From Galerina marginata (lineage: Eukaryota; Basidiomycota; Agaricomycetes; Agaricales; Galerinaceae): DNA of 64,000 nucleotides. The translations under genes were made by a program, and so were the position numbers. The notes under the pieces were generated by a model. That model was given only the letters and a program-made list of their open reading frames with translations. It had not been told where the DNA came from and made no database searches. Below, one piece after another: positions 8,216 through 63,586 of the stretch (positions are counted from its first letter, which is position 1; each line of letters begins with the position of its first letter). Location of the stretch: the NCBI GenBank assembly GCA_023014335.1, contig JAECYW010000032.1, positions 434,001 through 498,000 on the forward strand. The letters run 5' to 3'.

Positions 8216-8299
8216 GATGTTTCAGGTGGTGCAGTGAGCTCCGAGCGACAATTCAAGTCTCGGCCGTGCAGTATGTGTTAAAGGGAATCGGTTTAGGTA

Positions 8300-40083: not shown

Positions 40084-40099
40084 CGCCGCCTTGGCGGCG
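40084..40099. repeat. Short GC-rich inverted repeat at a composition boundary
   Basis: CGCCGCC-TT-GGCGGCG, a perfect 7-bp stem with a 2-base loop. It lies where normal intergenic DNA changes to the A/C-rich block. Confidence 0.6.
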
Positions 40100-42399: not shown

Positions 42400-45300
42400 A
42401 TGACTGCACGCGAAGCGCATGTACCATACACCCAGCAAACAGAAGCCATAGCGGAAACAAACACGAAAACAACAGCGACGACAAATGCGCATACCAGAAC
42501 ACCCACGGACAACCCAGACAGACCAAAATTATCCGGAACAACCCATGGTAAGCCCGCTACAATGGCCCTCACGAAAAAAAAAGCGAACTGCCTGACCGAA
42601 TCTATCGCAACAGCAGAAAAAGAGAACCAGGCGCACGCAGACGAGAGGGGGACCCCCGAAACATCCCCGAAGCCAACGCAAATACCACTAGAAACTACCC
42701 CACCACGTCATCCTGCGGGAGCGAAACAAGCCCCAGGTGGCACGAAGACAAGCTATCGATGCACACAGCCAGGATGTGAAACTCGGACAGGACACACCCG
42801 AAAGACCCACCAGCGACTATACCACCAGACATACACCCACGTGGCCTACCAAAATCCACTTGCGGGTGACATACTATATAGACAGGAAGACGGCTGCTTC
42901 CACTGTGTAAGATGTCAGCGAGCCACAAGAGACCCCGGCAAAATTCAAGTAAGTGCATAGACCAAACAAAAGGGAAAAAAAAAACACGATACTCAAACGT
43001 GTCTCCAGGAACACACCCAGAGGTGCAAGGGGGCGCAAGGAGAAACCCATTTCGACGACGAAAGCAACCCTGCGAGCCCGACGACGCCCCCACCGGAGCT
43101 GTGCGATGACGACTACATCCGTACACCAGATCCGTACACCAAATTAGAGACCGACGATTACGATCTACCATCCCTAGGAATAGGAATAAACAGGCTCATA
43201 TGCTCAATCGTCTGCATCCATTGCGGGCGAGTTGTCGCTCCCAAAGGCCTAGTCAAGCACGTCAAGGAGCATCTACGCTATGTGGAAGTCCCACAGGGAC
43301 TGACAGAGACTTTACAAAGCCGGTATCACATCGAAGAGCGACCCAAATACCCCGAGACAATATGCGAACCAATATTCTCAATTCCCATACACCCCTACGA
43401 ACTAGAGTTTTGTGTGCAGTGCAACAAAGGGTATAGCAACAGGGACTCGTTATCCAGCCATTTTCGAAAGGCACACGAGCACGGCGACCACATCGCGGCC
43501 AAGGGCTATGGCCAGTGGATAAACAGCGGTACGAGCGGACGCTATATACGGGTCAACATCGACAAACTAAGGCGCAAGGCGGACGAGGAAATCGATCATG
43601 TCGCGATTTTCATGAAGGAGCATCCACCGCTTATTGACTATGCAACTACAGCCATCAGGGGACCGGAGGACGATCAGAATCTCTCAGTGTTTTACCACAG
43701 AGAACAGTGGATCGAGCATTTGAAAGGCCATACGCCGGCAGATCTCGCGGAGGCAGCACGTTGCGCAGTGGACAACGAACCAGACGGAGCGATCTTACGC
43801 GAACTTGCGCACAGATACCTCCAACGCACCCAAGAAGAGATAACGAAACACAATGGATTCGGGTTAATGAAGGACATAGGAGGGGTGCATATCAATCTGC
43901 AAGTACAACCCATATAGCTACGACTATAACGTACTAACAGCCCGAATTACACAGCCCAAGCGAACACAAGGACTTCCGACGAGTCCAACCAGGCACCGTC
44001 ACAAAATACTCAGAGGTGCTCTTCCGCCTCGTATTTGCCTGTCATCGTTTCTACGGAGGGGACTGGACCGCAGCATACAGACTCCCCCCACTGGACACAC
44101 AGCAGCTCGAATCGCTCGAAGATCTGCGTAATGCAATAGATGAAAGACTAGACCTGGAAAACACAGCGCACAACGAAGAAGAAGAGGACGAGATAGTATC
44201 AGAATACGAGGCCAGGCTCGACGAGCTATTCCATCGGGCCTGTGTCAACCTAATGATGACCAATCGTAACTATTACGCCGCGACGAGGAACCTCGACAGA
44301 TTTTTTACGCCTGTCATATGCTACGCAGTCATACGATGCATTAGGGAATCGGGTGCCATGGCCAAGGCCTCCGTACTCAGTCAGGACTACGCTGCGCTCA
44401 TGTATTCCATTCGCGCCAGTGTATTGCACGAGAGTGTCGTAAGGAGTCAGAACACAGGCAGGAGCGTTCCGGAGTGAGTCCATTTCCATACACCGTTGCC
44501 CACGCTAACCCAATGCGAACCAGCGAATTCGAGACACTCCGAGAGTTCACAATAGACCGAAAGGAGACCCCGATGGCGTTTCTGTACAATGCGATGACAT
44601 CGCTCGCATCCATAAGAGCCAGCGAAACCACAGATGCTGAATTTATGTTCACCGATGCATCCGGGAGAGAAGTCAGTTACAAAGGAGCCAAGATCAGAGT
44701 TGGCGAACTCAAAGAGATGGTGGACGGAACGCTCAAATCCTACAAGGAAAAGCTAGCAGAAGTGGCGTTTCTAGGAGAGGAGCCACCACCCGAACTCTTC
44801 CCAGACATTGACATCGAAAGTCTGGTGGACGACATATCAAACCGAGCACCCGGTTATAGCTTTCTAGACGACCCACGCAATAACTTGACACAATATAACC
44901 GCGCATACGGAACATGGTTGTTTTCGGACAGGAAGCGAGCGGAACGGTTTGTCAAGTACGACGGCGAGAAGCATGTTTGGATACCGGAGCAATGCGAAAG
45001 GATGCTCCTCAAGCTACAAGAGATCCGCACGATCCTCCATACAGGCACAGTATACAGCCACGGGGCCACGGCCCGGGGGACGGAAGCCGCACGCCAACCA
45101 TTTCGCCAGATAACAGGTTCGCAGCGGAGCCTCGTATTGCTATTCCATACCATGTGCATTGTAGACTGTCAAGACAAGACGTCCAAGAGGACCCTAAAGG
45201 ACAAATACGTTCCGCATGTGCCTACCCGCGAGTATGCGCTAGCCCTGATACACAATCTCCTCATTATCCGTCCGTTCGAAGAACTACTCGTGCGAAAGCT

Positions 45301-48300
45301 CTATCCGGAAGACTCGGAGATCGTCTTTCGATATCACCACCAATTGTGGCCCGGATACCGACGCGCCATTACAGGTGACGACGTAGGCAACAAGATGGCG
45401 GCCATCACAGAAAAATATCTGGGAAAACCATACAAAATGACCTGGTGGCGGAGCCTGGTTACGACATATTCGAAACAGTTCGAGGACCAGTCGTTATACG
45501 AACTCCATCAAGAGTACTACGCCGACACAGCCAACATGCATACGACTGATATGAGCAACAAGCGATATGGTGTCCTAAAATCGAACCTAGACGGGTCAGA
45601 TACGAGACTCATAGTAGGGTGCATAAAAGTCGGACTCGAATGGCACAAGCTACTCGACATCGGACAAGACAAGCCATTCAGTGTGACTCACAGCGGCGGA
45701 GGCCAAGCACAGACGTCACCCCCGGATCACGGGGCGACATGTCAATGCACAAGAGGTCAGTCATTAAACAAACAGACAAGGTCGACGTTGCTGAAAGGAA
45801 AAAAAAAAAAATAGGAGGAACAGACACCGAACTGCTTACCGAGAGGGCCATCTCCAAAATGACACACGACATCGTACAGAGGGTCAGTAAGGAAGTCCAA
45901 GAGCCCATCAAGGACACGCTCGTGGAGATGGCGACTACGTATTTTCCGAAGCCGCCACCGAGGCCCGATACGTCGTCACTGAAGCAGGTGTCCGCCATAG
46001 CGGTCCATCCATCGCGTCGAGCAGCTCTTAGAAAGTATTTCGGCGACGACAGAGCACAGTTTACATGTCCGGAGCAGGGCATATTACTAGAGCGAATACT
46101 GCAAGGCAAAGACTGTATGCTGGGAGTCCTAGGCACTAGTTTTGGGAAGACGGCCCTCATACTCCTACTTGCCAGAATGTATGCCGCGCCGAGAACCATC
46201 ATCGTCGTGGTCCCCCTCCACGCGCTATACGAAGACCTCTGGTCAAGAGGTGCCAAAGAAAACATCACAGTCGACCATTGGCACCCCAACCCGAGGTATT
46301 ACAACCCCGCAGCCGCGATCATATGCTGTGCGGTCGAGCACTTAGAGTTCCCAGCATTCAAAGAGTAAGTCGAACCCAACATCGCGCGACGAGCCCAACT
46401 GACAGAAAGTGGCAGGTATCTCGTCGAGATGGAAAACAGTCAACGCCTGTACCGCGTCATATTTGACGAGGTGCACAAAGTCCTAACCGACAGTTCGTAT
46501 CGGAAAGCTTTCCACTCAGTCTGGGCACTCGTTACAGTGAAAACCCAGCTCACGGGTCTTACGGGGTGCCTTCCACCCCATCTAGTCGGGGATCTAGCCA
46601 AGATAATGTGGGTCGACTGGAGTATTATCCGGATGCCCTCGAACCGAAAAGAGCTAGTCTACAAAGTTGAAAGGGTGAAAGATCCGATGGACTCTGCGCT
46701 CGACTATCTCGAAGAGTGCCAACTGCGCTATAGACCCGTTGACCGCGCCATCGTGTTTTGCCGAAGTATCCACAAAGCCGAACGCATGGCAGCCGCCATC
46801 AACGACAGAAGGAAGGCAAGAGGAGAAGGGTGTGAACCATTACAAGCCTATCACTCCAAAAACGAAGAAAAAGACAACAAACAGACGATGGCCAAATGGA
46901 AAGAAGGCACGGAGAAGATAATGATCAGTACCACCTCGTTGGGCTGTGGGTTAGACTATAGCAGTATTCGCGACGTGGTGCACGTTGAACTAGCATGGTC
47001 GATATTGGACCAGTACCAGGAAGACTCGCGGGGCGGTAGGGATAAACGCGCCTGCAATGCCGTGACGTTTATACCCAGCGATGGAAAGAAGCCCTGGACA
47101 AGCAACGAAGGAGTGTATGATATAGGCAAAGACAAGGTTCATGAGTGGGCAATGTCGGCGGACAGGCAGTGCATGCGCATTATCCCCAGCCTCTTCCTTG
47201 ACGGCGTAGCCGTTACGTGCAGTCTGATCCCAGGCGCAGAATACTGCTCACATTGCCAGGCCCAGGAAACCCAAGCGCCACCGAAAGAACCATACATCTT
47301 GCCAGTCGCGACGCCCGACACCAATGACCTCCAGCTTGCGATGAAAAGCGACTGGTACAAGGAACAGCCACCCGTACCAGCACAGGTACAGAAGCAACCC
47401 GAACATGTGCAAGGACGGGCGACGGCCCCAGCCCCACCGGTTCAAGGCAGCCGACTGGCGCCGACGATCCCGATGCGACCGCCCACCCAAGCACGTCAAT
47501 CGGAGAATCACAACAGCATCGCACGAAATCCAGGGTACGCGACAAATACCAACCGACCGGGGATAGTACAAGCACCAGGGCAGTTAGCAGTGCGAATGTG
47601 GGCCGCACCAAACCAAGGCCAAACAGAGAACAGACCAAGAGCGATATTGGCTCCAGAGACCGCTACGCCCCAGACGCTCTATCCAACGGTTCGTACTACA
47701 GCCCCCCCAGCGGAAGCAAGCTCCAGTCCGGCGAGCATTACGCCCACGCCAACCAGTAGAAAACGGATACGATACGCATATGAAGACTTAGACGCGCACC
47801 ACAGCAACCCGGAGAAAAGGCAAAGGACAACCGCATCATTTCCCGTCTACGACAGACAACAAGAGCGGGATCCGACACAGTATGTCCAGTGACTGGCAGA
47901 AAGCATACGACGATGACAAAACAATTGTGCAGGTCGAATCGCCACACGGAGTACGCCTCTCCGAGGATCGATCTAACACGAATACAGCGTCCGCCAAGGT
48001 CAGTGTCCCATGTACGAAACCGCGAAAGTCGATGCTGAGCAATGCACAGTACACTCATCCGCCGGTCAGTCCGTAGTAAAACCATTCTAGGAGGCTAATT
48101 CAACATAGGCGAATTCCATCCAGGACGAGCACGAACCAGTAAGTACAAAAGTTCACATGAGAGCAGACTAACCAAGCCCCAACACAGAACGATGTCATCG
48201 CAGTACATGTAATGCGTCTACTCATGAGAATAAGATCATCGGAGCTAACCCACCCCAAATGATGCAGCACACCGCCCGCGACAAGGTACGTGTTCGATTT

Positions 48301-49327
48301 TTCAACGACGTCGAGTACCCGACCTCGAAGCAGGCCTGGGGCCAATAGACAGGACGTCCGACTGCACAGGTAAGGGCTACGAACGAGTCAACGGAGGTGA
48401 TATCAGATGACACCCACAGGTCCCCACAACCGAAGCAATACGGGAGCCACAGCGCCAAGCCGGCGACGCTTCCGCCAGACAACAAAGAAGATCCATTCAT
48501 TGCAGGCCCAGAAGCCAGACAGCTAGGGCGGCGTACCCAGCAAGAGGCCGATGCATACCCAAACGACGATCCCATGAACATAGATCCGCCGAGAAGCATG
48601 CACCCAATCCCGCCAACACAACACCGCCCAGAACGCGACGCGCCTATCCGTCCACCTGTACAGGGCCGGTTCCTCCCGCCCCCTCCGACCGCCCAAGCGG
48701 GAGTAAGATCACGCATAGCGACCCAGGCCATGCAAAAAAAACAACAAGAATGGGAGACGGCCGTCGTGAAACCCCTAAACGGAATATTTTCCCAATTCAA
48801 GGAAAAATGTATAGCATGTTACTTCGCAGAAACGAACGGTTGGGATCGACACCCGACAGACTCCTGCCATCAACACAGGGACATGTATGGAAGCGACCCA
48901 GCGTTTAATTTATACAGAGAAACGTTCCGGGCGGGCGACAGGCGAGGATTGTGTTATGGATGCTATGGTCCAGCGGTACGATAAAAACAGACAAAGAAAA
49001 AAAAAAACAACAAGCGCTCAAATCAATTCACAGGAAACAATGAAGCACCACCCCAAAATGGGGCCGAAATGCGATGCCAATAATATTCTGATGTGGATCA
49101 GTTATTGCTACCGACTGCATCGGCAAACTCTACCACAGTGCCCGTTCATCCCATCACATGTCGACGTCGACAACAACACGTTTCCCATCTGGTTGACGGA
49201 AACTGTAGAAGAAATAGATGCGAATTATTGGGTCGACCCACAGAAGAAGCGACGGAATATGTGGCCATTTACGATATGGCTCATCAAAAGCATCGGAGAA
49301 CAAACTACGGACCAAGGGGGCATGTAG
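42400..49327 (+). CDS. Giant composite gene: Cys/His fingers, recombinase-like region, RecQ-like helicase, Cys-rich C-terminus
   Basis: Predicted exons: 42400 (or ATG 42562)-42948, 43009-43902, 43941-44473, 44524-45680, about 45761-46364, 46416 to about 47880, then several ending with 48397-48984 and about 49040-49327. Finger 1 spans an intron (CVRCQRATRDPGKIQ, then EHTQRC); others are CIHCGRVVAPKGLVKHVKEH and CVQCNKGYSNRDSLSSHFRK. In 44524-45680, MTWWRSLVTTYS and HTTDMSNKRYG resemble the R and H..Y boxes of a degraded tyrosine recombinase. Helicase motifs are GTSFGKT (Walker A), IFDEVHK (DExH), VFCRS, TTSLGCGLDYSSI and QEDSRGGRD (motif VI). After it, FLDGVAVTC..YCSHC and a Cys/His domain (CIACYFAETNGWDRHPTDSC, LCYGCYGP). 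The family is seen in fungal subtelomeric or multicopy RecQ genes. No stop or shift blocks it. Confidence 0.75.
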
Positions 49328-49382
49328 AAGCGAATCGGGAGACAAATACGACAGCAGTCACAATCAAAACAGCGTAGACAGA

Positions 49383-49990
49383 GCCACAAGTAATACGAAG
49401 AAGCAAAAAAATCAGTTACGAAAAGCACGAACGCAAAAGCGACGAAGAAGATAACAGATATGTGAGGTTCGAGGTTCGAGGTTCGAAGGACCACCCCCGC
49501 ATCCGGGGGCGATAGATTACGTAACATGTTTCCTTATCCGGTTTCGAATCCACGTCCAAAGACTCTAGAAAAACTTGGCTCCTCGCCTCCGCGCTCGTCT
49601 AAGCCACAAGTAATAAGAAGAAGCAAAAAATCAGTTACGAAAAGCACGAACGCAAAAGCGACGAAGAAGATAACAGAAATATGAGGTTCGAGGTTCGAGG
49701 TACGAGGTTCGAAGGACCACCCCGCATCTGGGGGCGATAGATTACGTAACATGTTTCCTTATCCGGCTTCGAATTCACGTCCAAAGGCTCAAGAAAAACT
49801 TGGCTCCTCGCCTCCGCGCTCGTCTGAGCCACACGTAACACGAAGAAGCAACAAATCAGTTACGAAAAGCACGAACGCAAAAGCGTCGAAGAAGATAACA
49901 GAGGTTCGAGGTTCGAGGTGCGAGGCTCGAATGACCACCCCCGCATACGGGGGCGATCGATTGCGTGACATTTTCCTTATCCGGGCTTCG
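49383..49990 (+). repeat. 220-bp tandem repeat (three copies) with GGTTCGA runs and a C/G hairpin
   Basis: Copies start at 49383, 49603 and 49828 (spacing 220 and 225 bp). Each begins GCCACA(A/C)GTAA, has a GAAGAAGATAACAGA stretch, a short run of GAGGTTCGAGGTTCGA, then a hairpin of the CCCCCGCATCCGGGGG type, then CTTATCCGG and TTGGCTCCTCGCCTCCGCG (the last copy lacks this end). It follows the stop codon of the RecQ-like gene by about 55 bp. Confidence 0.9.
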
Positions 49991-50603
49991 AAGTATGAAA
50001 ATCGAGGTTACGCAATGTATAAGGGAGCGACTACACAGGATCGATAGCAGTGCACGTCATATGCGGACCCAGATGCGAAAGGCGTGGCCAAACGGGGTCG
50101 GAAAGGCCCAGACGACAAGCGTCTGATGTGGAGAGCGTCCCAGCCAGCGAACGAAGACAGGCGAAGACGAAAGAATAACATACCAAAAGAAGCAGGGTGT
50201 ATGTTCGAACACGGTGCAAACTGCGAGCAGAGCAGGGAAAGTAAATGCGGATTGCAAAACACGGAGACGGTCTATACAGTTCGTTCCAACCCTAGCCCGT
50301 CGTGCCACGAAGGTTAGGCAGACAGGCGCGAAGAAGAAGAGCAAAGGGTCAGAGGGTCGAGTGCCATAGCACTGCGCGAGGTTACTGCGCAGAAGACCGG
50401 TGACTATCCCTGCGAGCGCATGAGCCCGGTGCAAGATAAAAGGCGAGGCTAGGGACAAGAGAAAGCAGAAGAGAAGAAAGAGGGTGCGCAGGGGCCAAGA
50501 ATACGAGGACTCAGTGACGGCCCCACGACGAAAGATGATATCCAGCGCGTAATAGAGGCAGTGTGACCAGGTGTGACCGACAATACCTCGCTTTCCTTCC
50601 TAC
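49991..50603. other. Intergenic stretch, nothing firm
   Basis: Purine-rich on the + strand. The 133-aa minus ORF 50057-50458 and overlapping ORFs look like composition effects. Confidence 0.4.
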
Positions 50604-51182
50604 CATGTCGTACAAGCAGTTCCGCCTCGCACTCTTCGTCATCAAGTTGGTATATCGCCGGGGTGAGTATATAAGACCATATTTCGAAGAAGAAGGCTAA
50701 TGGGCAGCAGGGATGCTGAAGAGCCTACTGCGCCAAGTCTTACCCGTGCTCTGCGAATGGGCAGGAGGTAGGGCATTTCGTCGAACCCAGGCACGATACT
50801 AACCCGTCCAGTTCCACGAACCCGCCATATCGTCATCACGGGCGGTTCGTTCTATCAAGTCCAAGGAGATGTGAATATAACCAACGGGTCAGCACGTACG
50901 GGCACAGTCGCAGCCGGCATATTGGTACCCCAGCCGTCGGTCAGAAACCTTCCGTGGAACAACGAGAACCTGGGCAATGTGGTCGTGAAGGGGGGGAGTT
51001 TCTGGGACATACGAGGAGACATGATAATCAGAGAAGGTGCGACATTTCGTCAATTGGTGAACCCAGCTGACCGCGAACCATCACAATTCACCGTATTATT
51101 ACAACGTCATTGTCTATATAAAACCTTGAATATACAAAATTGCACCTTGCAGAGAATGAGTGACGCGAGTAATAAGCCATAG
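50604..51182 (+). CDS. Small unknown protein with repeated GGSF-x3-GD motif
   Basis: ATG at 50604 (MSYKQFRLALFVIKL) with a likely intron to MLKSLLRQVLPVLCEWAG, then acceptor CCAG before PRTRHIVITGG. The main exon has two copies of one pattern: GGSFYQVQGDVNIT and, about 40 residues later, GGSFWDIRGDMII. Such G-S/T-F-x(3)-G-D beta-strand motifs appear in short Agaricomycete proteins of unknown role. Stop at 51180-51182. The exon chain upstream of 50811 is uncertain. Confidence 0.5.
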
Positions 51183-51448
51183 CAGTGATCGGATTCTAAA
51201 ATAGAACAGCGTGCCCAGTCCAAAATAACCTAGCTGATCCGATAGTAAAATTAAAATCCCACGAGTCGTCCCAAGTCAGGGAGACCGGGGAAAGTCCAAA
51301 CAAGGTACGAGTGACATAAGGAGAACAGGGCAGAGCGAACGACGTAAGCACAAGAACCAAAGCAGGCCCGCCAAACATATGCCAAGGCGAGATACAACAA
51401 GCCCAGTAAAGAGAAGCCTCCGCAAACTCTCTATCTCATATAACGTCG

Positions 51449-51931
51449 GTGTCGCGAGAGAAGAGGAGCTGCAAAGTAGGACTTCCACAAGTCCCCATCG
51501 ATGCCGTGTTGCAGTGCCTTTCCTCCCTACCCCTCTCATTGACCCACCACAAAAGTCACCAAATGGACAGGAAAGGGTCCACGACCCTCTTCAAGACGAG
51601 TGAATATGATACGAGGCAGCCCGAAGGACGAGCAGGCCAACGAAGTGTATTACAGAGGAACGGCAAACGGGCCAGTCAGCGAACGATGCGCAGGTCGAAC
51701 CCATCCGACTCCAAGGCCTCCACGACGCTCACACATGGCGAGTCAGTGGCGCCAGTCAACAGAAACAGTGCCCAGGGAGGTTCTCAGGAGGGCCAATTCC
51801 GCGCGTTGTCGGCTACTCGGAGTTACGAGTCGAGCGCGGGGTCAACGGAAAACAAGGTAGCGGCACAACATATCCAGCAGTGGCAGAAGCAGTATATTCG
51901 TTTCGCAGCGGACCATAACAGCAGCCGATAA
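51449..51931 (+). CDS. Hypothetical ORF, possibly an exon
   Basis: 160 codons open, polar and Ser/Arg/Gln-rich, ending HIQQWQKQYIRFAADHNSSR. No recognised domain. It follows the GGSF-motif gene on the same strand and could be a further exon or a separate gene. Weak support. Confidence 0.3.
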   Translation: MSREKRSCKVGLPQVPIDAVLQCLSSLPLSLTHHKSHQMDRKGSTTLFKTSEYDTRQPEGRAGQRSVLQRNGKRASQRTMRRSNPSDSKASTTLTHGESVAPVNRNSAQGGSQEGQFRALSATRSYESSAGSTENKVAAQHIQQWQKQYIRFAADHNSSR

Positions 51932-52005
51932 ACGCGGGATACCAAGTCAATACGAGAACCATAAGGAGGGTACAACATCAAACCACGCGAGGCGGATCGA
52001 ATAAG

Positions 52006-52494
52006 TTGAAAAAGGAGTGTATTTCCCATGCGGGGCCTAGACAACCTCGACCAGCCGTGCAAAAAAAAAAAAATCGAATGTCAGTGAGTGTGATCGAGGC
52101 TGTCCAAACATGGTTCGACAGCCTCGAGCATCCAGTATCGCCCCAGACGGACGTTTCACCGGGAATGCCATCAACCAGGGCCAGTCAAAGCGCGCGTATC
52201 ATAAGAAAATTTATAGGACAGACACAAGTCCATGCGACAGTAGCACAAAGCAGGCCTGTCTTCCAACTACCCCCTTCGCGTAGGACCCAACATCAAACGA
52301 AGCAGCCACTACAGAACGGCAAGAAGAACTCTACGAAAAGAAGGCGTCCAATCCGCTGTCAGAGTCTAATGGTAGGCATCGTCGAGGATGGCAGGGATAT
52401 AGAACGTCAAGACTCCACCCTCCTCCGCCACATCCCCGACGTACACGTAAAGAATGACGCAATGGCGATGGCAAACAGCTATACAGCGCGGTGA
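52006..52494 (+). CDS. Hypothetical ORF, possibly an exon
   Basis: 162 codons open; best internal ATG 52078 (MSVSVIEAVQTWFDSLEHP). Polar, with a Lys/Arg-rich patch (KKNSTKRRRP) that could be a nuclear signal. No recognised domain. A following ORF at 52498-52686 contains DYVAIQKLEETLRGN and RFKKDWKVHKRV and may belong to the same gene. Confidence 0.3.
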   Translation: MKKECISHAGPRQPRPAVQKKKNRMSVSVIEAVQTWFDSLEHPVSPQTDVSPGMPSTRASQSARIIRKFIGQTQVHATVAQSRPVFQLPPSRRTQHQTKQPLQNGKKNSTKRRRPIRCQSLMVGIVEDGRDIERQDSTLLRHIPDVHVKNDAMAMANSYTAR

Positions 52495-53139
52495 GGTATG
52501 GGAGGGAAACACGAAGAAAGGGAAACACTTGCAGGCAATGGTCGTTGCAGAGACTACGTGGCTATTCAAAAACTTGAGGAAACTCTTCGTGGAAACGAGG
52601 ACAGTGAAAAGTCTATCAGGGTTGGGGCGATCACGGTCCGGCGCTTCAAGAAGGACTGGAAAGTGCACAAAAGGGTGCGTCAGTGAAGGACAAGAAAAAG
52701 CGGAGACGACGAACCGGTAGGATGTGTGCAGTCTACCCACTCTGTCTCCACAGAGACGTATTCGGTCCTAATAGAGAGTACAAGTCGCTTGTTGTTGTTA
52801 GCCCTGATAGCCATTACATCCGACATGCGATGAAGCCGTTCCACAATCGTGCGTAGTTTAAGCAGCGGGGGCAAGAGGACGAGTGACTGAAAAAAAAAAA
52901 AAAAAAACCCCATTAGAACTGCAGATGAGGCAAGAAAGAGACGTACATCGGCCACGGGACATAGTGGCTCCCTCATCAGGTCGACATCAGCCAGCCTCAA
53001 AACCTCGACTTTCACGTCGTGCGCAACATTCACACGCTGACCACTTCTACTGTATCCAACGATTTCAAAAGACAGCAGAGCCCGGTCGTCTTAGGGTTAT
53101 TAGTGATTTTTTTTTGAAATCCCTGGTCCATCCCTAGTC

Positions 53140-53245: not shown

Positions 53246-53308
53246 TTTTGCGGAGCACATTATCTCATATTGACAGACCTTGCATCTGTTTTCTGAGAAT
53301 CCTCGGAC

Positions 53309-56060
53309 TTCATATGAGTGCTTTTCGCATAATCACCAAGCTCATATCTGGGGCTCTAGGATCCCCGCAATTCATATGAGTGCTTTTGGCATAATCACCA
53401 ACCTCATATCTGGGGCTCCAGGATCCCCGCAATTCATAGGTGTGCTTACAATGTACTAACTGACTTCATATTTGACGTTCAAGGATCCCCAAAATTCATG
53501 TGGGTGCTTTCGGCATAATTGCCAACCTCATATCTGACCTTCGAGGATCCCCGAAATTCATATGAGTGCTTGCGATGTACTGACTGACTTCATATCTGAC
53601 CTTCGAGGATCCCCGCAATTCATGTGAGTGCTTTCAGCATAATCACCAACCTCATATCTGGGGCTCCAGGATCCCCGCAATTCATAGGTGTGCTTACGAT
53701 GTACTAACTGACTTCATATTTGACCTTCAAGGATCCCCGAAATTCATGTGGGTGCTTTCGGTATAATCACCAAGCTCATATCTGGGGCTCGAGGATCCCC
53801 ACAATTCATATTAGGGCTGCGCACCGTACCCGTATCGACGGGTCATACGGACGGGTTATACGGGTAAATGCCCGTCCCGTCGGCGCCTCAAGAGCACACA
53901 AGAACGGCCCGTCAGACGACGGGTACATGCCGTCGTCACCCCTCAACCTACGGCCGTAACGGCCGTCATACGGGTCTAATAGAAAATATCCAAATTAAGC
54001 AATTAAACAGTTAGAAAGTGTTCTCGAGGCCTGTCGAATGGTCGACTAACACACAATTTAAGTCCCGCGAGCATCGTCGGAGCGGGGCGACGCATATTGT
54101 GGACTGTATTCGTTGGAATACCGCCATTATAGACTCCGTTCGGTGGTATTTGGGAGGTATTGCCTTTCTTGGTGAGACTGGACATAGTGTCCCTTGGTTG
54201 TGTAGGCCCTTCTTTTCATGTCTAAGCTTCAATTATACTATAGTAACTACCCAGAACACCTCCCTAATCCACTAGCTTACAAAAGATTCAATAAAAGACT
54301 AAAAATGTTGTGGAAGAAAGAAAACGGCCGTCGACGGCCGTTTTAACCCGTTTCAGACCCGTCCCGACCCGTTGGGATTTGGCGGTCAAGCCAAAACGGG
54401 ACGGTCGTGTCGGTCTCCTACCCGCTTGACCCGTAAGCTCGACGGCCGTACCCGTAATACGGCCGGTGCGCAGCCCTAATTCATATGAGTGCTTTCAACG
54501 TAATTGCCAACCTCATATCTGGGGCTCGAGGATCCCCGCAATTCATAGGTGTGCTTGCAATGTACTGACTGACTTCATATCTGACCTTCGAGGATCCCCG
54601 AAATTCATGTGGGTGCTTTTGGCATAATCGCCAACCTCATATCTGACCTTCGAGGATCCCCGAAATTCATATGAGTGCTTGCGATGTACTGACTGACTTC
54701 ATATCTGACCTTCGAGGATCCCCGCAATTCATGTGGGTGCTTTCGGCATAATCAGCAACCTCATATCTGGGGCTCCAGGATCCCCGAAATTCATGTGAGT
54801 GCTCTCAGCATAATCACCAACCTCATATCTGGGGCTCCAGGATCCCCGCAATTCATGTGGGTGCTTTCAGCATAATTACCAACCTCATATCTGGGGCTCG
54901 AGGATCCCCGAAATTCATAGGTGTGCTTGCAATGTACTGACTGACTTCATATTTGACCTTTGAGGATCTCCGCCATTCATGTGGGTGCTTTCGGCATAAT
55001 CGCCAACCTCATATCTGACCTTCGAGGATCCCCGAAATTCATATGAGTGCTTATGATGTACTAACTGACTTCATATTTGACCTTCAAGGATCCCCGAAAT
55101 TCATGTGGGTGCTTTCGGCATAATCACCAAGCTCATATCTGGGGCTCGAGGATCCCCACAATTCATATGAGTGCTTTCGACGTAATTGCCAACCTCATAT
55201 CTGGGGCTCGAGGATCCCCGAAATTCATAGGTGTGCTTGCAATGTACTGACTGACTTCATATCTGACCTTCGAGGATCCCCGCAATTCATGTGAGTGCTT
55301 TCAGCATAATTACCAACCTCATATCTGGGGCTCCAGGATCCCCGCAATTCATGTGGGTGCTTTCAGCATAATCACCAACCTCATATCTGGGGCTCCAGGA
55401 TCCCCGCAATTCATAGGTGTGCTTACGATGTACTAACTGACTTCATATTTGACCTTCAAGGATCCCCGAAATTCATGTGGGTGCTTTCGGCATAATCACC
55501 AAGCTCATATCTGGGGCTCGAGGATCCCCACAATTCATATGAGTACTTTCGACATAATTGCCAACCTCATATCTGGGGCTCGAGGATCCCCGAAATTCAT
55601 AGGTGTGCTTGCAATGTACTGACTGACTTCATATCTGACCTTCGAGGATCCCCGCAATTCATGTGGGTGCTTTCGGCATAATCGCCAACCTCATATCTGA
55701 CCTTCGAGGATCCCCGAAATTCATGTGGGTGCTTTCGGCATAATCGCCAACCTCATATCTGACCTTCGAGGATCCCCGAAATTCATATGAGTGCTTTCGG
55801 CATAATCACCAAGCTCATATCTGGGGCTCGAGGATCCCCACAATTCATATGAGTGCTTTCCACGTAATTGCCAACCTCATATCTGGGGCTCTAGGATCCC
55901 CGCAAGTCATAGGCATGCTTGCGATGAACTAACTGACTTCATATCTGACCTTTTAGGATCCCCGAAATTCATGTGGGTGCTTTCGGCATAATCGCCAACC
56001 TCATATCTGACCTTCGAGGATCCCCGAAATTCATATGAGTGCTTTCGGTGTAATCACCAA
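53309..56060 (+). repeat. 62-bp satellite array
   Basis: About 33 head-to-tail copies of a 62-bp unit, each containing TTCAT near the start and GGATCCCC near the end. Two variants are mixed: one with GCATAATCACCAACCTCATA and TCTGGGGCT, the other with GATGTACTAACTGACTTCAT and TGACCTTC. Interrupted once by the MITE at 53812-54478. No coding frame. Confidence 0.95.
53812..54478. mobile_element. Non-autonomous hAT-type MITE, 667 bp
   Basis: Perfect 15-bp terminal inverted repeats TAGGGCTGCGCACCG / CGGTGCGCAGCCCTA, flanked by an exact 8-bp duplication ATTCATAT (53804-53811 and 54479-54486) taken from the satellite unit. An 8-bp duplication and TAGGG-like ends point to the hAT superfamily. Subterminal regions are full of CGGCCGT and ACGGGT palindromes. 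No transposase frame; it would need a transposase supplied elsewhere. Confidence 0.92.
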
Positions 56061-56173: not shown

Positions 56174-57131
56174 TCAATTCAGCAGTGTTACATTACTATT
56201 CCAAACCGGCACACTTCGAACAGCGACCCGAGGACCGGAAGTGGGCACACCTTCTGTACTTATGAACCCACTTTTATCCTGTTGGCTATTCTTTGTCCAC
56301 CACATCTTATCCGAAGTTGCCCACGGGACCCAGAAGAGTTGATCGAACCGTTTTCGAACAGATTTACGGACCTTGTCAATCGTATCTAAGTCAGGACATC
56401 TTTCAACGAAGACATTCCACGATCGATAATAAGATGCTTGTCGATAATTTTGAGCATTCTCAATCTTTACAACACCTTTCTTCGGCCACAAATGGCCAAA
56501 GATATTATCCCATCCCTTGTTGTCTGGGATTTTCCACTGGCAGGATCGAAAGTAGTCGGAGAGTTCACGATTTTGGTATGTTGCTTCGTCGACATTTTGC
56601 TGTTCCTCCTTGGTAAGTTTGATGTATGACGTCTTGCCAGCCCCTGCCATATTCGGAGCCTTCTGGGTTATATCGAAGAGAAATTGTCGCCAGAGGACAC
56701 TGAGCTGTATATCAATATCAGGAATGTTCATGTCTTCATCAATAGCATCGGGTTCAAGTTCTTCGTTGTCGAAGCCATCGTCCTGGATGGTAACGGGGTT
56801 AAGATAACATCCTTGATCTTTGAGATTGAACATAGGAGCCATGTCTTCCTCTGCGATATAACGTAACGTCTTTCGTACTTTGTTTTGTACACGATCAGGA
56901 TTTGATTTCTGGACTAACCCACCACTGAACAGAATATCTTGCACGTCCTCCAGGTCTTTCTCAAAAATGAACTTGAAGGTTTTGTCGGTTATAAACTGAC
57001 CAGTTCGATAGTATCGAGGACATGGAAACCCATCACCAAATCTGATAAGATTAGTGAATACGAGGCCATGAATTATGCTGGGGACAGTATTTGCATTAGC
57101 GGCAACATGCCGCGGGAAGAAATCATCATCC
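56174..57131 (-). pseudogene. 5'-truncated gene of an Agaricomycete-type unknown family
   Basis: The frame is open from the junction at 57131 to the stop at 56174 (318 codons); an internal ATG lies at 56944. Conserved-looking peptides are GDGFPCPRYYRTGQFITDKTF (in part), LSDYFRSCQWKIPDNKGWDN, SYYRSWNVFVERCPD, VRKRFDQLFWVPWATSDKMW. Similar SYYR-x-W / LxWLP-x-A-x-SDRMW proteins of unknown function are common in Agaricomycetes. The coding frame runs directly into the left edge of the 3.4-kb repeat, so the N-terminus has been lost or displaced. Confidence 0.6.
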
Positions 57132-57148
57132 TAATAATCTAAGTCGTC

Positions 57149-57165
57149 AACTGGTACTACCAGTT
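57149..57165. repeat. 17-nt palindrome P1
   Basis: AACTGGTACTACCAGTT, after AATAATCTAAGTCGTC; all eight pairs match. Followed by TGTTCCC..GGGAACA and several GGGAACA iterons. Confidence 0.9.
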
Positions 57166-57391
57166 TGTTCCCGTTCCCGGGAACAGCTTTTCAGTGACGG
57201 GAACACAATGGGAACAGAATTATGGGTTCAGTGGAACATGTGGATGTCTATGGGAACATGTTTCTAAGTTTTATGGAACCAAAAATTGCTGAGAGGAACA
57301 ATAACAACAGGTTTACATGTTTTGCACAGTATTATTTACATGACAGGAATACAACAGAAACAGAATCATAGTCCTAATAATCTAAGTCGTG

Positions 57392-57408
57392 AAGCAGGGA
57401 CCCTTATT
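57392..57408. repeat. 17-nt palindrome P2
   Basis: AAGCAGGGACCCTTATT after AATAATCTAAGTCGTG; six of eight pairs match (AGGG-A-CCCT core). Followed by TGGCATAGATGCCA and TGGCAT iterons. Confidence 0.75.
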
Positions 57409-57600
57409 GCATGCTGGCATAGATGCCAAAGCCCTCATATGATATGTCAAAAATAAAATTAAAAAGGCACTGGCATCAGCTATATATGTTCCATGGCACT
57501 TTGGCATCCAATAACAGTGCCAAAAAGATTAATTGAACTCGCTTTGGCATCTGATACATAAGATTCACAAAACCAAACAGATCTAATAATCTAAGTCATC

Positions 57601-57617
57601 AACTAGTCCTGCTAGTT
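57601..57617. repeat. 17-nt palindrome P3
   Basis: AACTAGTCCTGCTAGTT after AATAATCTAAGTCATC. Followed by TGTTAAACGTAACA and a GGTAACAG iteron. Confidence 0.85.
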
Positions 57618-57671
57618 GTGTTAAACGTAACAACTCCCACGGTAACAGATTCCTTAATAATCTAAGTCGTC

Positions 57672-57688
57672 AACTAGTCCTGCTAGTT
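57672..57688. repeat. 17-nt palindrome P4
   Basis: AACTAGTCCTGCTAGTT again, followed by TGTTACACGTAACA and two GGTAACAG iterons. Confidence 0.85.
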
Positions 57689-57759
57689 GTGTTACACGTA
57701 ACAACTCCCATGGTAACAGACGGTAACAGATTCCTGAGAGTTTAATAATCTAAGTCTTC

Positions 57760-57776
57760 AATAACACCTTGTTATT
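57760..57776. repeat. 17-nt palindrome P5
   Basis: AATAACACCTTGTTATT after AATAATCTAAGTCTTC; seven of eight pairs match. Followed by TGTTCC..GGAACA and GGGAACA iterons. Confidence 0.85.
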
Positions 57777-57851
57777 TGTTCCGTTCCGGGGAACAGCTTT
57801 TCAGTGACGGGAACACAATGGGAACAGATTTCTTTAATAATATAAGTTGTC

Positions 57852-57868
57852 AATAACGAGGGGTTATT
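57852..57868. repeat. 17-nt palindrome P6
   Basis: AATAACGAGGGGTTATT after AATAATATAAGTTGTC. Followed by GTTACCCGTAAC and two GGTAACAG iterons. Confidence 0.85.
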
Positions 57869-57939
57869 GAGTTACCCGTAACAACTCCCACGGTAACAGA
57901 CGGTAACAGATTCCTGAGAGTTGAATAATATAAGTCATC

Positions 57940-57956
57940 AACTGGTACTACCAGTT
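57940..57956. repeat. 17-nt palindrome P7
   Basis: AACTGGTACTACCAGTT after AATAATATAAGTCATC. Followed by TGTTCC..GGAACA and GGGAACA iterons. Confidence 0.85.
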
Positions 57957-58200
57957 TGTTCCTGTTTTCGGGAACAGCTTTTCAGTGACGGGAACACAAC
58001 GGGAACAGATCTTTGGGTTCAATGGAACTTAGGGTTCCCTATGAGAACACGCAACATTTATCCTTTTTTTCTTTTCTTGGCTTCTGTAATTACTCAGCTG
58101 ACCAACACGCTGATCAACATCTGCATGTTTTGTGAAACCAACAGCTTGATTCACATGTCTGTTCAATCTGAGATATCAGGGAGGGAAATTCAACAAGAAT

Positions 58201-58395
58201 GCTTAGGCAACGCCTAAGCTAAAACCCTTGGCTTTTTTTTAAAAACTCCATCAAAAAGCCTTGCCGAGTCCGCACTTGCATACAGGTTGCCGGCGGTCGT
58301 CATCGGTTAGGTTCTGTTGTACAATTGCATTGGGAAAAAAACAAGTTGCGTCTACAAAAATAAATAGGGCCCGACCAAAGACTGATATTCCGCAC
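58201..58395 (+). repeat. GCTTAGGC hairpin block, copy 1
   Basis: Starts with GCTTAGGC-AAC-GCCTAAGC, continues CCTTGCCGAGTCCGCACTTG, GTCGTCATCGGTTAGG, and ends GATATTCCGCAC. Copies at 59111 and 60136, and in unit 2 at 61602, 62512 and 63537 (cut short). Confidence 0.9.
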
Positions 58396-58741
58396 TGTCA
58401 TTGGGAAACACGTATGTGGTGCAACTATAAGTGAAATGGTGAAACTGAACTCAATCGTAGTGATTCATTTGCTTTTAGAACTAAGTATATCTCCAGGTAT
58501 CTCTGAAAGTATCCAACGTTAATCCGACTTGCTCTGTTTACTGTCATTTATATCAAAGTTCCATGGAACCAAAGACTTTTGATACTGCCTCCAGCTTCTG
58601 TTGGGTGGACTGGGTATGGGTATGAACCTTGCTTTTAGAGTCATCGACCTTTTGGAGCATCAAAATTGGAACGAAATTTCAACATCTTGTAATCACTCTT
58701 CCCGACACGTCAACCAACAAGCTTTAATAATCTAAGTCGTG

Positions 58742-58758
58742 AAGCAGCAGTGCTTATT
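58742..58758. repeat. 17-nt palindrome P8
   Basis: AAGCAGCAGTGCTTATT after AATAATCTAAGTCGTG; same two mismatched pairs as P2 but the core is AGCA-G-TGCT. Followed by GGCATATATGCC and a TGGCATC iteron. Confidence 0.75.
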
Positions 58759-58848
58759 GCATGCCGGCATATATGCCACTGGCATCATATGACATGTCAA
58801 AAAAGTCTTACATTGAATGTAAATTCTGAAGCAGTTGGCGACAGTCAC

Positions 58849-58865
58849 AACAAGGACTCCTTGTT
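58849..58865. repeat. 17-nt palindrome P9
   Basis: AACAAGGACTCCTTGTT, all eight pairs match. The leader is degenerate (GCGACAGTCAC). Followed by TTGCCATCAAG. Confidence 0.8.
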
Positions 58866-59110
58866 TAATAGTGCTCTTGCCATCAAGAATCTCCAATCTG
58901 CATGTTCCGTGAAACTTGCGGATGCTACTGCTATTAAAAATCATAGACTTGGTGACAGTTCACGTGGAAAGCTATTAATGGTCAAAAAAACATATGGCAA
59001 TGATATCTGAAAGTTCCATGACATCTGTAAATTCCCGTCAGATGTCAGAGTCATTGATACTATCAGTAACTTGCATACTGCAGTTTATAATCAACTTGGT
59101 GAATCAGAAT

Positions 59111-59302
59111 GCTTAGGCAACGCCTAAGCTGAGACCCTTGAATTTTCTATTGAAATCTCATCAAAAACCTTGCCGAGTCCGCACTTGCATACAGGTCACC
59201 GGCGGTCGTCATCGGTTAGGTTCTGTTGTACAATTGCGTTAAGAAAAAACAAGTTGCGTCTACAAAATAAATAGGGCCTAACCAAAGACTGATATTCCGC
59301 AC
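59111..59302 (+). repeat. GCTTAGGC hairpin block, copy 2
   Basis: Same hairpin and core as copy 1 with scattered substitutions. Confidence 0.9.
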
Positions 59303-59820
59303 CCTCACCAAGAAACACGTGTGTCATCCATAAGTTCCATGAAACCTGTAGATCCACGTCAGATGTCTACTTGGTCAAAGTATTGATCAAAAATTGTGTT
59401 AGAATGCTTGAGTGAATTCTGTTGAACTCCCGCAAACAGACCAGTGACTTTACGATGATTATGTAATCACTTTCCCCTTTGATATCTTCACTCCTGCGGG
59501 ACAATCCTTGACTCGAGTCCTTCTTCCGAACCATCAAGTGAATTCCCGCAAACAAGTGAATTGACTTTATGTGGACGTGAGTTGTGTTTAAAGACTGATT
59601 TCTAAGTTCTGTGGAACCTACAGTTGATTGGCAAGCAAGTTCTGTTGTACTCCCGCAAACAGTGAATGTCTTCACTCTGAGTGCGTTGAAATTGCGTCTA
59701 CAGGGCAGAATTAAATACTGATACCAGGAAATAAGTTCTGTTGATACCAAGTCTGTAGATCCATGTCAGGTCAGAGTATTTGTATTAGAGTCTTCCTTTC
59801 CTTTGGTGATATACTTTCAC

Positions 59821-59837
59821 AACTAGGACTCCTAGTT
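59821..59837. repeat. 17-nt palindrome P10
   Basis: AACTAGGACTCCTAGTT, all eight pairs match; differs from P9 by a compensatory pair change. Followed by GATGGCACCATC and TTTGCCATC iterons. Confidence 0.8.
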
Positions 59838-60135
59838 TGATGGCGATGGCACCATCAAAATAAAGCAATATTCATGTTCCATGACACTTGCAGATCACTT
59901 TGCCATCAAACATTTTTTTTATCTCTTCGTTTCAAGCAACATCCAGATCTCTCTGCCATCGCATTGATGGCGCCATCATCACAAAAACAGGTTCCAAAGT
60001 ACTTGCAGATTACTTTGCCATCGGGATCCATCAAATAAACAGGTTCTGATATTCTGCATCTTCATCAGGAAATGCGTGTGATCTGGAAGTTCCATGACAC
60101 CTGTAGATCTACGTGAGTCATTGGTACATAAGAGT

Positions 60136-60330
60136 GCTTAGGCAACGCCTAAGCTGAGACCCTTGGCTTTTTAAATTGAAAACCCATCAAAAACCTTGCC
60201 GAGTCCGCACTTGCGTCCAGGTGGCCGGCGGTCGTCATCGGTTAGGTTCTGTTGTACAATTGCGTTGGGAAAAAAACAAGTTGCATCTAGAAAAATAAAT
60301 AAGGCCCAACCAAAGACTGATATTCCGCAC
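60136..60330 (+). repeat. GCTTAGGC hairpin block, copy 3
   Basis: Same hairpin and core. In unit 2 the equivalent copy is cut after GAAAACCC, where unit 3 begins. Confidence 0.9.
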
Positions 60331-60532
60331 CCTTACCAGGAAACGCGTGTGTCATCCGTAAGTTCCATGAAACCTGTAGATCCACGTCAGTTGATCAAAA
60401 ATTGTATTAGAGTATTCTCTATGTAATCAATTTCCCATTTGAGTCCTTCTTCCCAAGTTCTGTAGAACCATCAGTTATTGGCGAGCAAATTCTATTGGAC
60501 TCCCGCAAACAAGTGAATTGACTTTACGTGGA

Positions 60533-63500
60533 TAATAATCTAAGTCGTCAACTGGTACTACCAGTTTGTTCCCGTTCCCGGGAACAGCTTTTCAGTGACG
60601 GGAACACAATGGGAACAGAATTATGGGTTCAGTGGAACATGTGGATGTCTATGGGAACATGTTTCTAAGTTTTATGGAACCAAAAATTGCTGAGAGGAAC
60701 AATAACAACAGGTTTACATGTTTTGCACAGTATTATTTACATGACAGGAATACAACAGAAACAGAATCATAGTCCTAATAATCTAAGTCGTGAAGCAGGG
60801 ACCCTTATTGCATGCTGGCATAGATGCCAAAGCCCTCATATGATATGTCAAAAATAAAATTAAAAAGGCACTGGCATCAGCTATATATGTTCCATGGCAC
60901 TTTGGCATCCAATAACAGTGCCAAAAAGATTAATTGAACTCGCTTTGGCATCTGATACATAAGATTCACAAAACCAAACAGATCTAATAATCTAAGTCAT
61001 CAACTAGTCCTGCTAGTTGTGTTAAACGTAACAACTCCCACGGTAACAGATTCCTTAATAATCTAAGTCGTCAACTAGTCCTGCTAGTTGTGTTACACGT
61101 AACAACTCCCATGGTAACAGACGGTAACAGATTCCTGAGAGTTTAATAATCTAAGTCTTCAATAACACCTTGTTATTTGTTCCGTTCCGGGGAACAGCTT
61201 TTCAGTGACGGGAACACAATGGGAACAGATTTCTTTAATAATATAAGTTGTCAATAACGAGGGGTTATTGAGTTACCCGTAACAACTCCCACGGTAACAG
61301 ACGGTAACAGATTCCTGAGAGTTGAATAATATAAGTCATCAACTGGTACTACCAGTTTGTTCCTGTTTTCGGGAACAGCTTTTCAGTGACGGGAACACAA
61401 CGGGAACAGATCTTTGGGTTCAATGGAACTTAGGGTTCCCTATGAGAACACGCAACATTTATCCTTTTTTTCTTTTCTTGGCTTCTGTAATTACTCAGCT
61501 GACCAACACGCTGATCAACATCTGCATGTTTTGTGAAACCAACAGCTTGATTCACATGTCTGTTCAATCTGAGATATCAGGGAGGGAAATTCAACAAGAA
61601 TGCTTAGGCAACGCCTAAGCTAAAACCCTTGGCTTTTTTTTAAAAACTCCATCAAAAAGCCTTGCCGAGTCCGCACTTGCATACAGGTTGCCGGCGGTCG
61701 TCATCGGTTAGGTTCTGTTGTACAATTGCATTGGGAAAAAAACAAGTTGCGTCTACAAAAATAAATAGGGCCCGACCAAAGACTGATATTCCGCACTGTC
61801 ATTGGGAAACACGTATGTGGTGCAACTATAAGTGAAATGGTGAAACTGAACTCAATCGTAGTGATTCATTTGCTTTTAGAACTAAGTATATCTCCAGGTA
61901 TCTCTGAAAGTATCCAACGTTAATCCGACTTGCTCTGTTTACTGTCATTTATATCAAAGTTCCATGGAACCAAAGACTTTTGATACTGCCTCCAGCTTCT
62001 GTTGGGTGGACTGGGTATGGGTATGAACCTTGCTTTTAGAGTCATCGACCTTTTGGAGCATCAAAATTGGAACGAAATTTCAACATCTTGTAATCACTCT
62101 TCCCGACACGTCAACCAACAAGCTTTAATAATCTAAGTCGTGAAGCAGCAGTGCTTATTGCATGCCGGCATATATGCCACTGGCATCATATGACATGTCA
62201 AAAAAGTCTTACATTGAATGTAAATTCTGAAGCAGTTGGCGACAGTCACAACAAGGACTCCTTGTTTAATAGTGCTCTTGCCATCAAGAATCTCCAATCT
62301 GCATGTTCCGTGAAACTTGCGGATGCTACTGCTATTAAAAATCATAGACTTGGTGACAGTTCACGTGGAAAGCTATTAATGGTCAAAAAAACATATGGCA
62401 ATGATATCTGAAAGTTCCATGACATCTGTAAATTCCCGTCAGATGTCAGAGTCATTGATACTATCAGTAACTTGCATACTGCAGTTTATAATCAACTTGG
62501 TGAATCAGAATGCTTAGGCAACGCCTAAGCTGAGACCCTTGAATTTTCTATTGAAATCTCATCAAAAACCTTGCCGAGTCCGCACTTGCATACAGGTCAC
62601 CGGCGGTCGTCATCGGTTAGGTTCTGTTGTACAATTGCGTTAAGAAAAAACAAGTTGCGTCTACAAAATAAATAGGGCCTAACCAAAGACTGATATTCCG
62701 CACCCTCACCAAGAAACACGTGTGTCATCCATAAGTTCCATGAAACCTGTAGATCCACGTCAGATGTCTACTTGGTCAAAGTATTGATCAAAAATTGTGT
62801 TAGAATGCTTGAGTGAATTCTGTTGAACTCCCGCAAACAGACCAGTGACTTTACGATGATTATGTAATCACTTTCCCCTTTGATATCTTCACTCCTGCGG
62901 GACAATCCTTGACTCGAGTCCTTCTTCCGAACCATCAAGTGAATTCCCGCAAACAAGTGAATTGACTTTATGTGGACGTGAGTTGTGTTTAAAGACTGAT
63001 TTCTAAGTTCTGTGGAACCTACAGTTGATTGGCAAGCAAGTTCTGTTGTACTCCCGCAAACAGTGAATGTCTTCACTCTGAGTGCGTTGAAATTGCGTCT
63101 ACAGGGCAGAATTAAATACTGATACCAGGAAATAAGTTCTGTTGATACCAAGTCTGTAGATCCATGTCAGGTCAGAGTATTTGTATTAGAGTCTTCCTTT
63201 CCTTTGGTGATATACTTTCACAACTAGGACTCCTAGTTTGATGGCGATGGCACCATCAAAATAAAGCAATATTCATGTTCCATGACACTTGCAGATCACT
63301 TTGCCATCAAACATTTTTTTTATCTCTTCGTTTCAAGCAACATCCAGATCTCTCTGCCATCGCATTGATGGCGCCATCATCACAAAAACAGGTTCCAAAG
63401 TACTTGCAGATTACTTTGCCATCGGGATCCATCAAATAAACAGGTTCTGATATTCTGCATCTTCATCAGGAAATGCGTGTGATCTGGAAGTTCCATGACA

Positions 63501-63586
63501 CCTGTAGATCTACGTGAGTCATTGGTACATAAGAGTGCTTAGGCAACGCCTAAGCTGAGACCCTTGGCTTTTTAAATTGAAAACCC
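60533..63586 (+). repeat. 3.4-kb tandem repeat, unit 2 (3054 bp, lacks the last 347 bp)
   Basis: Identical to unit 1 in all parts compared, but ends at GAAAACCC within the third GCTTAGGC block, where unit 3 begins. Confidence 0.95.

Follow-up and report, generated by a model that had tools for sequence, protein, structure and literature searches.

Leader-plus-palindrome modules in a subtelomeric array of Galerina marginata as probable left ends of a recombinase-helicase transposon family

What holds a short palindrome together when its letters change from copy to copy? The question is raised by a stretch of 64,000 nucleotides from Galerina marginata (C26:434001-498000, here called the window), where a nearly constant leader is followed, module after module, by a palindromic slot of 17 nt within a subtelomeric array. 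We analyzed the modules in the window and searched for them in a genome of 69.3 Mb in 43 contigs. The answer that we favor, with a probability of roughly 0.6, is that the modules come from a family of fungal DNA transposons, of which they form the left-terminal ends and in which the first gene would encode a protein with OrsD zinc fingers, a tyrosine recombinase and a RecQ-like helicase; the palindrome, or dyad, would be the site of this recombinase, and the ends would be joined to their targets one-sidedly. The array opens with the following features, where m1 to m10 are the successive modules:

57132..60532, plus strand: first complete higher-order unit (3,401 bp) of the subtelomeric array, which the modules open
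57132..57148, plus strand: m1 left terminus, a T and the 16-nt leader AATAATCTAAGTCGTC
57149..57165, plus strand: m1 17-nt palindrome AACTGGTACTACCAGTT, 8/8 pairs
57166..57221, plus strand: m1 second dyad, of GGAAC iterons, with further iterons
57376..57408, plus strand: m2 leader and slot AAGCAGGGACCCTTATT, 6/8 pairs
57585..57617, plus strand: m3 leader and palindrome AACTAGTCCTGCTAGTT, then a GTTAC-type dyad
57656..57688, plus strand: m4 leader and palindrome AACTAGTCCTGCTAGTT; second start point of array segments (unit position 524)
57744..57776, plus strand: m5 leader and palindrome AATAACACCTTGTTATT, GGAAC-type tail
57836..57868, plus strand: m6 leader and palindrome AATAACGAGGGGTTATT, GTTAC-type tail
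57924..57956, plus strand: m7 leader and palindrome AACTGGTACTACCAGTT, GGAAC-type tail
58726..58758, plus strand: m8 leader and slot AAGCAGCAGTGCTTATT, 6/8 pairs, TGCCA-type tail
58849..58865, plus strand: m9 palindrome AACAAGGACTCCTTGTT, with a degenerate leader before it
59805..59837, plus strand: m10 leader B GGTGATATACTTTCAC (16 nt) and palindrome AACTAGGACTCCTAGTT; homology to the C7 array begins at leader B

Eight modules carry the leader AATAAT(C/A)TAAGT (at 57133, 57376, 57585, 57656, 57744, 57836, 57924 and 58726), and in each of them the slot starts 16 nt from the first A of the leader. Other leaders precede two further slots, at 58849-58865 and 59821-59837; that of the latter slot is likewise 16 nt long. 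This layout had been described in a first-pass annotation of the window; we confirmed it, and all six palindrome sequences quoted there were correct. The leader was counted 18 times in the 64-kb window, against a mean of 0.00 in 100 shuffles. Behind the 17-nt dyad comes a second dyad of iterons, which are of GGAAC, GTTAC, TGCCA or GATGG type. Past the first unit the array continues with a unit of 3,054 bp (60533-63586) and then from 63587 onward, beyond the window to C26:535314.

On C26 the array with the 3,401-bp unit runs as far as the contig end; C13 carries it again, there reaching a telomere. On C7 a shorter, diverged stretch adjoins a telomere, and single ends are found on C1. The leader modules number 120 on C26, 211 on C13, two on C7 and one on C1. 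Genome-wide, the exact leader occurred 239 times in forward orientation and 0 times in reverse. As (TTAGGG)4 telomere repeats were found at the right ends of ten contigs and never on the reverse strand, leaders that all lie on the plus strand all point to the right-hand contig end. The array copies on C26 and C13 are nearly identical, so the genomic modules are not independent data, and only distinct slots can enter the statistics. The idea of a genome-wide family with many independently changing palindromes, as had been envisaged, found no support: the copies trace to about 13 slots, duplicated in concert. An RNA gene was considered as well and rejected, with 0 Rfam matches at the gathering threshold over the 64 kb and 0 tRNAs.

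We evaluated the pairing on 13 distinct slots, drawn from the window, C7, C1 and C39 (a C38-type slot, found later, is outside the 13). Each slot has six to eight of its eight pairs in register, and from position 1 to position 8 the pair is present in 12, 13, 10, 11, 13, 12, 11 and 7 of the 13 slots, so that the innermost pair stands at 7/13. At positions 3-8, 64 of 78 pair, compared with a mean of 36.8 and a maximum of 56 in 20,000 permutations of the right halves, and the covariation of the 13 slots likewise lay above all 20,000 permutations. Further measures of covariation were computed on 11 leader-plus-slot rows, taken with their relatedness uncontrolled and leaving out the two slots with degenerate leaders. 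The covariation score was 0.557, versus 0.168 in shuffles and 0.036-0.174 in slid registers; four of five measures were reached by at most 8 of 500 shuffles, and the weaker fifth, the number of pairs changed on both sides (6), by 37 of 500. The matched changes that the first-pass annotation had read in the palindrome are thus borne out, as pairing covaries strongly on the 13 distinct slots, kinship uncontrolled. Its claim that pairing is largely kept in all modules holds in so far as every slot has six to eight pairs, and is qualified by m2 and m8, which are imperfect.

Between m1 and m5, 15 of 16 leader letters are the same but only 6 of 17 in the palindrome, and the tails agree at 96% over 51 nt; m4 and m6 share 14 of 16 leader letters and 7 of 17 in the palindrome. 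Such exchanges of a whole palindrome between a nearly identical leader and a similar tail fit selection on the dyad, in keeping with the earlier suggestion that it is selected or copied as a structure, be it a hairpin or a dimer site. The contrast between m1 and m5 is the strongest hint that the dyad may change as a unit. In single-strand folding, two adjacent hairpins were obtained for four of the seven modules tried (m1, m3, m5 and m10) and no two-hairpin form for m2 and m6, m2 folding no better than its shuffles (z 0.19); the C39-type end, described below, gave one hairpin. Possible hybrid half-sites (AAGCAG...CTTATT beside AAGCAGGCCCCCTGCTT on C7) offer a lead for crossover products inside the dyad.

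Contig C1 indicates what such an end may belong to. On its left side, an element there that looks autonomous ends in the same leader and palindrome, with one base different from window m1. The fixed left end is made of a T, the 16-nt leader, the 17-nt dyad slot, the iteron dyad and iterons. It lies at 4301308, and the first ATG follows 1.02 kb further on in the same direction, so that the recombinase gene is the first behind the 5′ end. The product of this gene combines OrsD with a tyrosine-recombinase-like part and a RecQ-like helicase, the last matching BLM/RecQ with E 5e-16. The element interrupts a copy of a gene that is intact on C39, and its 63-residue flank matches C39 at 100%. A candidate for the remainder of the interrupted gene, 90 kb away at C1:4391887, was read as a different gene.

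Two more types of element have comparable ends. A second element has copies on C1, C39 and C40, with a recombinase of 38% identity to the first; their sequences begin to agree at CTAATAATCTTAAGTTCC and then TAGTGTGCCCCACACTT, which supply a leader akin to the first and, in the position of the slot, a dyad of six pairs. The third type, found on C38 and C42, has 49 bp in common that start with CTAATATTCTTATGATCC; a recombinase locus lies downstream. Near-matches of the C39-type leader (2-3 mismatches) were at or below background, with 17 forward and 17 reverse and controls of 44 and 22; only C38 and C42 were kept among them, because of their 49-bp agreement from the first base and the recombinase locus downstream. 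Those at loci L040-L042 were read and dropped, and near-matches of leader B on C6 and C9 (1 mismatch) were attributed to chance. The slot starts 16 nt from the element edge in all three leaders, A, B and C39-type. Judged by these sequences, the leader and its position are common to the element types, and a clear 17-nt dyad is common, though not universal or obligatory.

Behind the C1 helicase gene, at L025 5959-7800, small frames of 80-114 aa that are related to one another are preceded by a recurring motif similar to GGTCTGTGCGC...TATAAA, which suggests tandem duplicated cargo genes. A 15-nt dyad motif, AGTTYYRTGRAACYT, was found (≤3 mismatches) 24 times in 8.7 kb of the C1 element (2.0 expected) and 17 times in the 3.4-kb array unit (1.2 expected from base shuffles), with five other stretches near background. 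Each array unit also contains three times a conserved block of ~220 bp (CTTAGGCAACGCCTAAGC ... GGTTAGGTTCTGTTGTACAATTG), in the first unit at 58196-58417, 59106-59326 and 60131-60352, for which there was no Rfam match at the gathering threshold.

The window probably holds a recombinase-helicase gene too, in separate open frames:

42961..43917, plus strand: C2H2/OrsD-like zinc-finger open frame (OrsD E 0.0093, below the Pfam cut-off), probably the N-terminal part of the gene
44345..45814, plus strand: tyrosine-recombinase-like open frame (R250, K278, R369, H399, Y408), with relatives on C41, C2 and C39
45550..47892, plus strand: two open frames with Helicase_C and DEAD domains (the latter weak, under the cut-off), probably making up the helicase at the C-terminal end of this gene

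Two AlphaFold models of the recombinase part had Xer/Cre recombinases as their best structural neighbors, and the R, K, R, H, Y set was invariant in 27/27 members (18/18 or 17/17 where the letters were present). The part is accordingly modeled as a tyrosine-recombinase fold that has the catalytic set. Tyrosine recombinases usually carry a histidine three residues before the second R; in these members it is not conserved. Named homologues of the window recombinase genes (four) come from the basidiomycetes Suillus, Blastosporella, Obba and Phlegmacium, and none of 60 pattern matches in viral contigs was confirmed as a related locus. The region of the gene, 40000-53000, has a strong AT skew of up to 0.49 and C-rich tracts.

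How the ends reached their places can be read in part from the joins. In the array, 46 of 49 segments start at a leader (33 at m1, 13 at m4); the other three lie at the error-rich end of C26, where two continue collinearly and one starts inside leader m1. The segments end at six different unit positions, the left end thus being fixed while the preceding sequence and the stop vary, and the m1 end was found after eight different upstream sequences. At the eight joins with a known uninterrupted target, three letters were shared once, one letter three times and none four times, so homology is not their driver. The base before the element was C in 11, T in 6 and A in 2 of 19 hand-listed joins, and the 30 nt preceding each of the leaders listed are free of telomere repeats. 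At C1, the sole case that could be tested, the distal part of the interrupted target is missing: the 2.5 kb rest of the C39-type gene matches C39 and, at 70-75%, C38, and not C1, by best-candidate scoring only. Of 12 loci with a recombinase match, 11 are oriented toward whichever contig end is nearest, and the twelfth sits on a contig of 21 kb, close to both ends; as to location, 11 of the 12 lie within 160 kb of a contig end, C1:4303768 being at 210.6 kb. Beside the array, a 318-aa open frame without Pfam match (56174-57130, minus strand) ends at the array start, as if cut by a join.

Our best reading is that the element colonizes chromosome ends, by a mechanism that we infer as follows. The 17-nt dyad would be the recognition site of the element's own recombinase, either as a dimer site or, when single-stranded, as a hairpin, and matched arm changes would then be expected as recombinase and site diverge. 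The recombinase would cut beside the leader and join the 5′-T of the left end to a target ending mostly in a pyrimidine. Tyrosine recombinases leave a 3′-phosphotyrosine and a free 5′-OH, and the left joins look like the 3′ end of a target joined to the 5′-T of the element. The helicase may help to copy the element outward, the distal chromosome being replaced by the element. Such outward replication would account together for the fixed left ends, the variable right ends, the outward direction and the location near chromosome ends; with everything distal of the target replaced, one-sided joins would survive mainly near telomeres, pointing outward. Repeated joins and tandem duplication could have built the window array. 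Only tentatively, as a proposal that we consider rather doubtful, can this be extended to a class of DNA transposons that move one-sidedly onto chromosome ends: their recombinase-helicase would cut beside the leader, read the variable dyad by its structure (a folded hairpin) and not by its sequence, attach one left end to a chromosome that is broken or cut, and put the element in place of all that is distal, which would lengthen and remodel telomeric regions without reverse transcription.

A number of results weigh against the transposon-end reading. Modules m2 and m8 (AAGCAG...CTTATT) mispair at positions 3 and 4, and the C38-type slot pairs at 5/8, a weak dyad of a kind that a random slot gives in ~3% (binomial, p 0.25). 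All 13 m4 starts are preceded by an insert of 255-256 bp whose left edge is no recognized leader, so not every join starts at a leader; with their identical flank, the joins of m5 and m7 may count as a single event, and m7 starts with G, not T. No such left end was seen in ~4.8 kb upstream of the C18 and C28 loci (39-40% identical). The 12 recombinase loci are related by duplication, so counting their orientations makes them look more independent than they are; several are weak matches (E 6e-7 to 5e-4 in four), and the helicase part was examined at C1 and in the window only. For the recombinase part, Foldseek with the C1-type model gave no significant PDB match (best E 0.69), sequence searches brought nothing relevant from PDB and, with E allowed up to 1, no recombinase family of Pfam in any of 27 members. 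Both models place four of the five putative catalytic residues in stretches with a predicted local distance difference test score (pLDDT) under 50. A right end was not found, which makes integration of a circle with later distal loss possible.

Integration of this kind defines the main rival, a two-ended recombinase transposon similar to Cryptons or Starships, whose circle integrates and whose distal parts are lost later by terminal deletion, break-induced replication or telomere healing. We regard it as possible but on the unlikely side; it shares the identity of the element with the reading that we favor, so the odds of the two overlap. A recombinase gene placed first behind the left end is what passages of PMC12289983 describe for Starship captains, and the T shared at some joins fits a short direct-repeat core. 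Distal loss, too, seems to occur: at C13:1397078-1397300, telomere repeats begin inside the 256-bp insert, at GGCT/TAGG, where the internal copy continues GGCTATTACAG, probably a healed break. However, the copies examined have neither a right end nor a target remainder, the array segments start at a leader with the three exceptions given, and GCR1_C was as absent from the five C1 frames scanned as a Pfam recombinase match was from the 27 members. The palindrome and iterons could instead be promoter operators through which the zinc-finger part regulates its own gene, the fixed end stemming from something else. The sites do lie upstream of the first C1 gene, dyads with matched arms are typical of dimeric regulators, and the iteron type changes with the module; yet a promoter site would not need to stand 16 nt from the edge in three leader types, and gene-less modules of 71-92 bp keep leader and dyad, so that we find this account improbable.

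Plain satellite amplification by homologous recombination, with the leader as a hotspot and the palindromes meaningless, would explain the near-identical C26 and C13 copies, between which exchange clearly occurs. We hold it to be very unlikely, as leaders are joined to sequences without a leader there (the eight known-target joins, with 0-3 nt shared), the matched arm changes exceed all 20,000 permutations, and the same or a related end fronts recombinase genes. Still less credible to us is a terminal retroelement on the minus strand, of the HeT-A or Penelope-type Terminon kind, the fixed end being an RNA 3′ end primed on the chromosome end. A fixed proximal and a variable distal end with head-to-tail arrays in one orientation are known from Terminons (PMC6431247, in part), but the C1 gene has its fixed end behind it and runs toward the telomere, the five C1 frames scanned contained no match to a reverse transcriptase, and the leaders listed lack telomere repeats before them. 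A Helitron 3′ end, with its hairpin beside a fixed end, was also considered and rejected: no CTRR end was seen, the five C1 frames scanned gave neither a Rep nor a Pif1-type helicase match, and the helicase is RecQ-like.

Elsewhere in the window, a 62-bp tandem satellite (53295-56060) is interrupted at ~53814-54476 by an insertion of ~660 bp with inverted termini TTAGGGCTGCGCACCG, similar to a miniature inverted-repeat transposable element, and a Ty3/gypsy-type retrotransposon with gag, protease, reverse transcriptase, integrase and chromodomain lies at 2847-8221 on the minus strand.

The literature passages at hand give no settled reason for the presence of RecQ-like helicase genes at fungal chromosome ends. 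Sharing a gene with a recombinase-like part, and standing behind a sharply defined mobile-element end, these helicases become a testable transposon, and the covarying palindrome gives a direct handle on the co-evolution of a recombinase and its site. An element that builds up near chromosome ends could explain how the ends grow and why helicase genes gather there. If the one-sided mechanism were true, a DNA transposon would rebuild chromosome ends, as a counterpart without reverse transcriptase to Drosophila HeT-A and rotifer Terminons, and the subtelomeric RecQ helicase genes of mushrooms would be transposase genes.

Among known systems, the mitochondrial double-hairpin elements that the first-pass annotation took as the nearest analogy do not apply, C13, C7 and C1 being telomere-capped contigs; the termini of tyrosine-recombinase transposons are closer, as elements that encode a recombinase-like protein have this very structure for their left end. 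Integron attC sites, IS200/IS605 and Helitron ends use other enzymes, integron integrase excepted, and unlike at these, single-strand recognition is not evidenced here. HeT-A has a fixed proximal end, distal truncation and head-to-tail arrays at telomeres, features that Terminons share (PMC6431247, in part); the C1 gene differs in its direction, toward the telomere, and in the lack of reverse transcriptase in the frames scanned. In the open-licence PMC literature searched, partly in excerpts, we found no described nuclear element of this layout, as the first-pass annotation had supposed, and no combination of recombinase, RecQ-like helicase and dyad-bearing fixed end; nor did any paper there pair "tyrosine recombinase" with "telomere-linked helicase". 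Cryptons are DNA transposons that use a tyrosine recombinase, those of fungi mostly with 6-bp terminal direct repeats and a GCR1_C domain (PMC3212892, in part; "helicase" has 0 occurrences there). They resemble the present elements in the recombinase, whereas a scan of the five C1 frames that allowed E up to 1 did not turn up the GCR1_C domain of CryptonF. The Starships of Pezizomycotina have their tyrosine-recombinase gene first behind the 5′ end (PMC12289983, in part), as the C1 element has, with the gene reading inward; they are also reported from the basidiomycete Tremella, one with direct and inverted repeats (PMC13066641, in part). The elements described here differ from them in the RecQ-like helicase part, the apparently one-sided joins, the position near chromosome ends and the lack of a Pfam recombinase match in 27 members. 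RecQ-like helicase genes, full and truncated, occur in multiple copies near fungal chromosome ends (PMC7473861, with 0 occurrences of "recombinase", and PMC12857005, both in part). Like these telomere-linked genes of Agaricus bisporus var. burnettii and Fusarium (TLH), the helicases of G. marginata, to judge by the C1 (BLM/RecQ) and window (Helicase_C) genes, are RecQ-like, multicopy and near the ends; unlike them, they come with a tyrosine-recombinase-like part and OrsD fingers, behind the fixed terminus of a mobile element.

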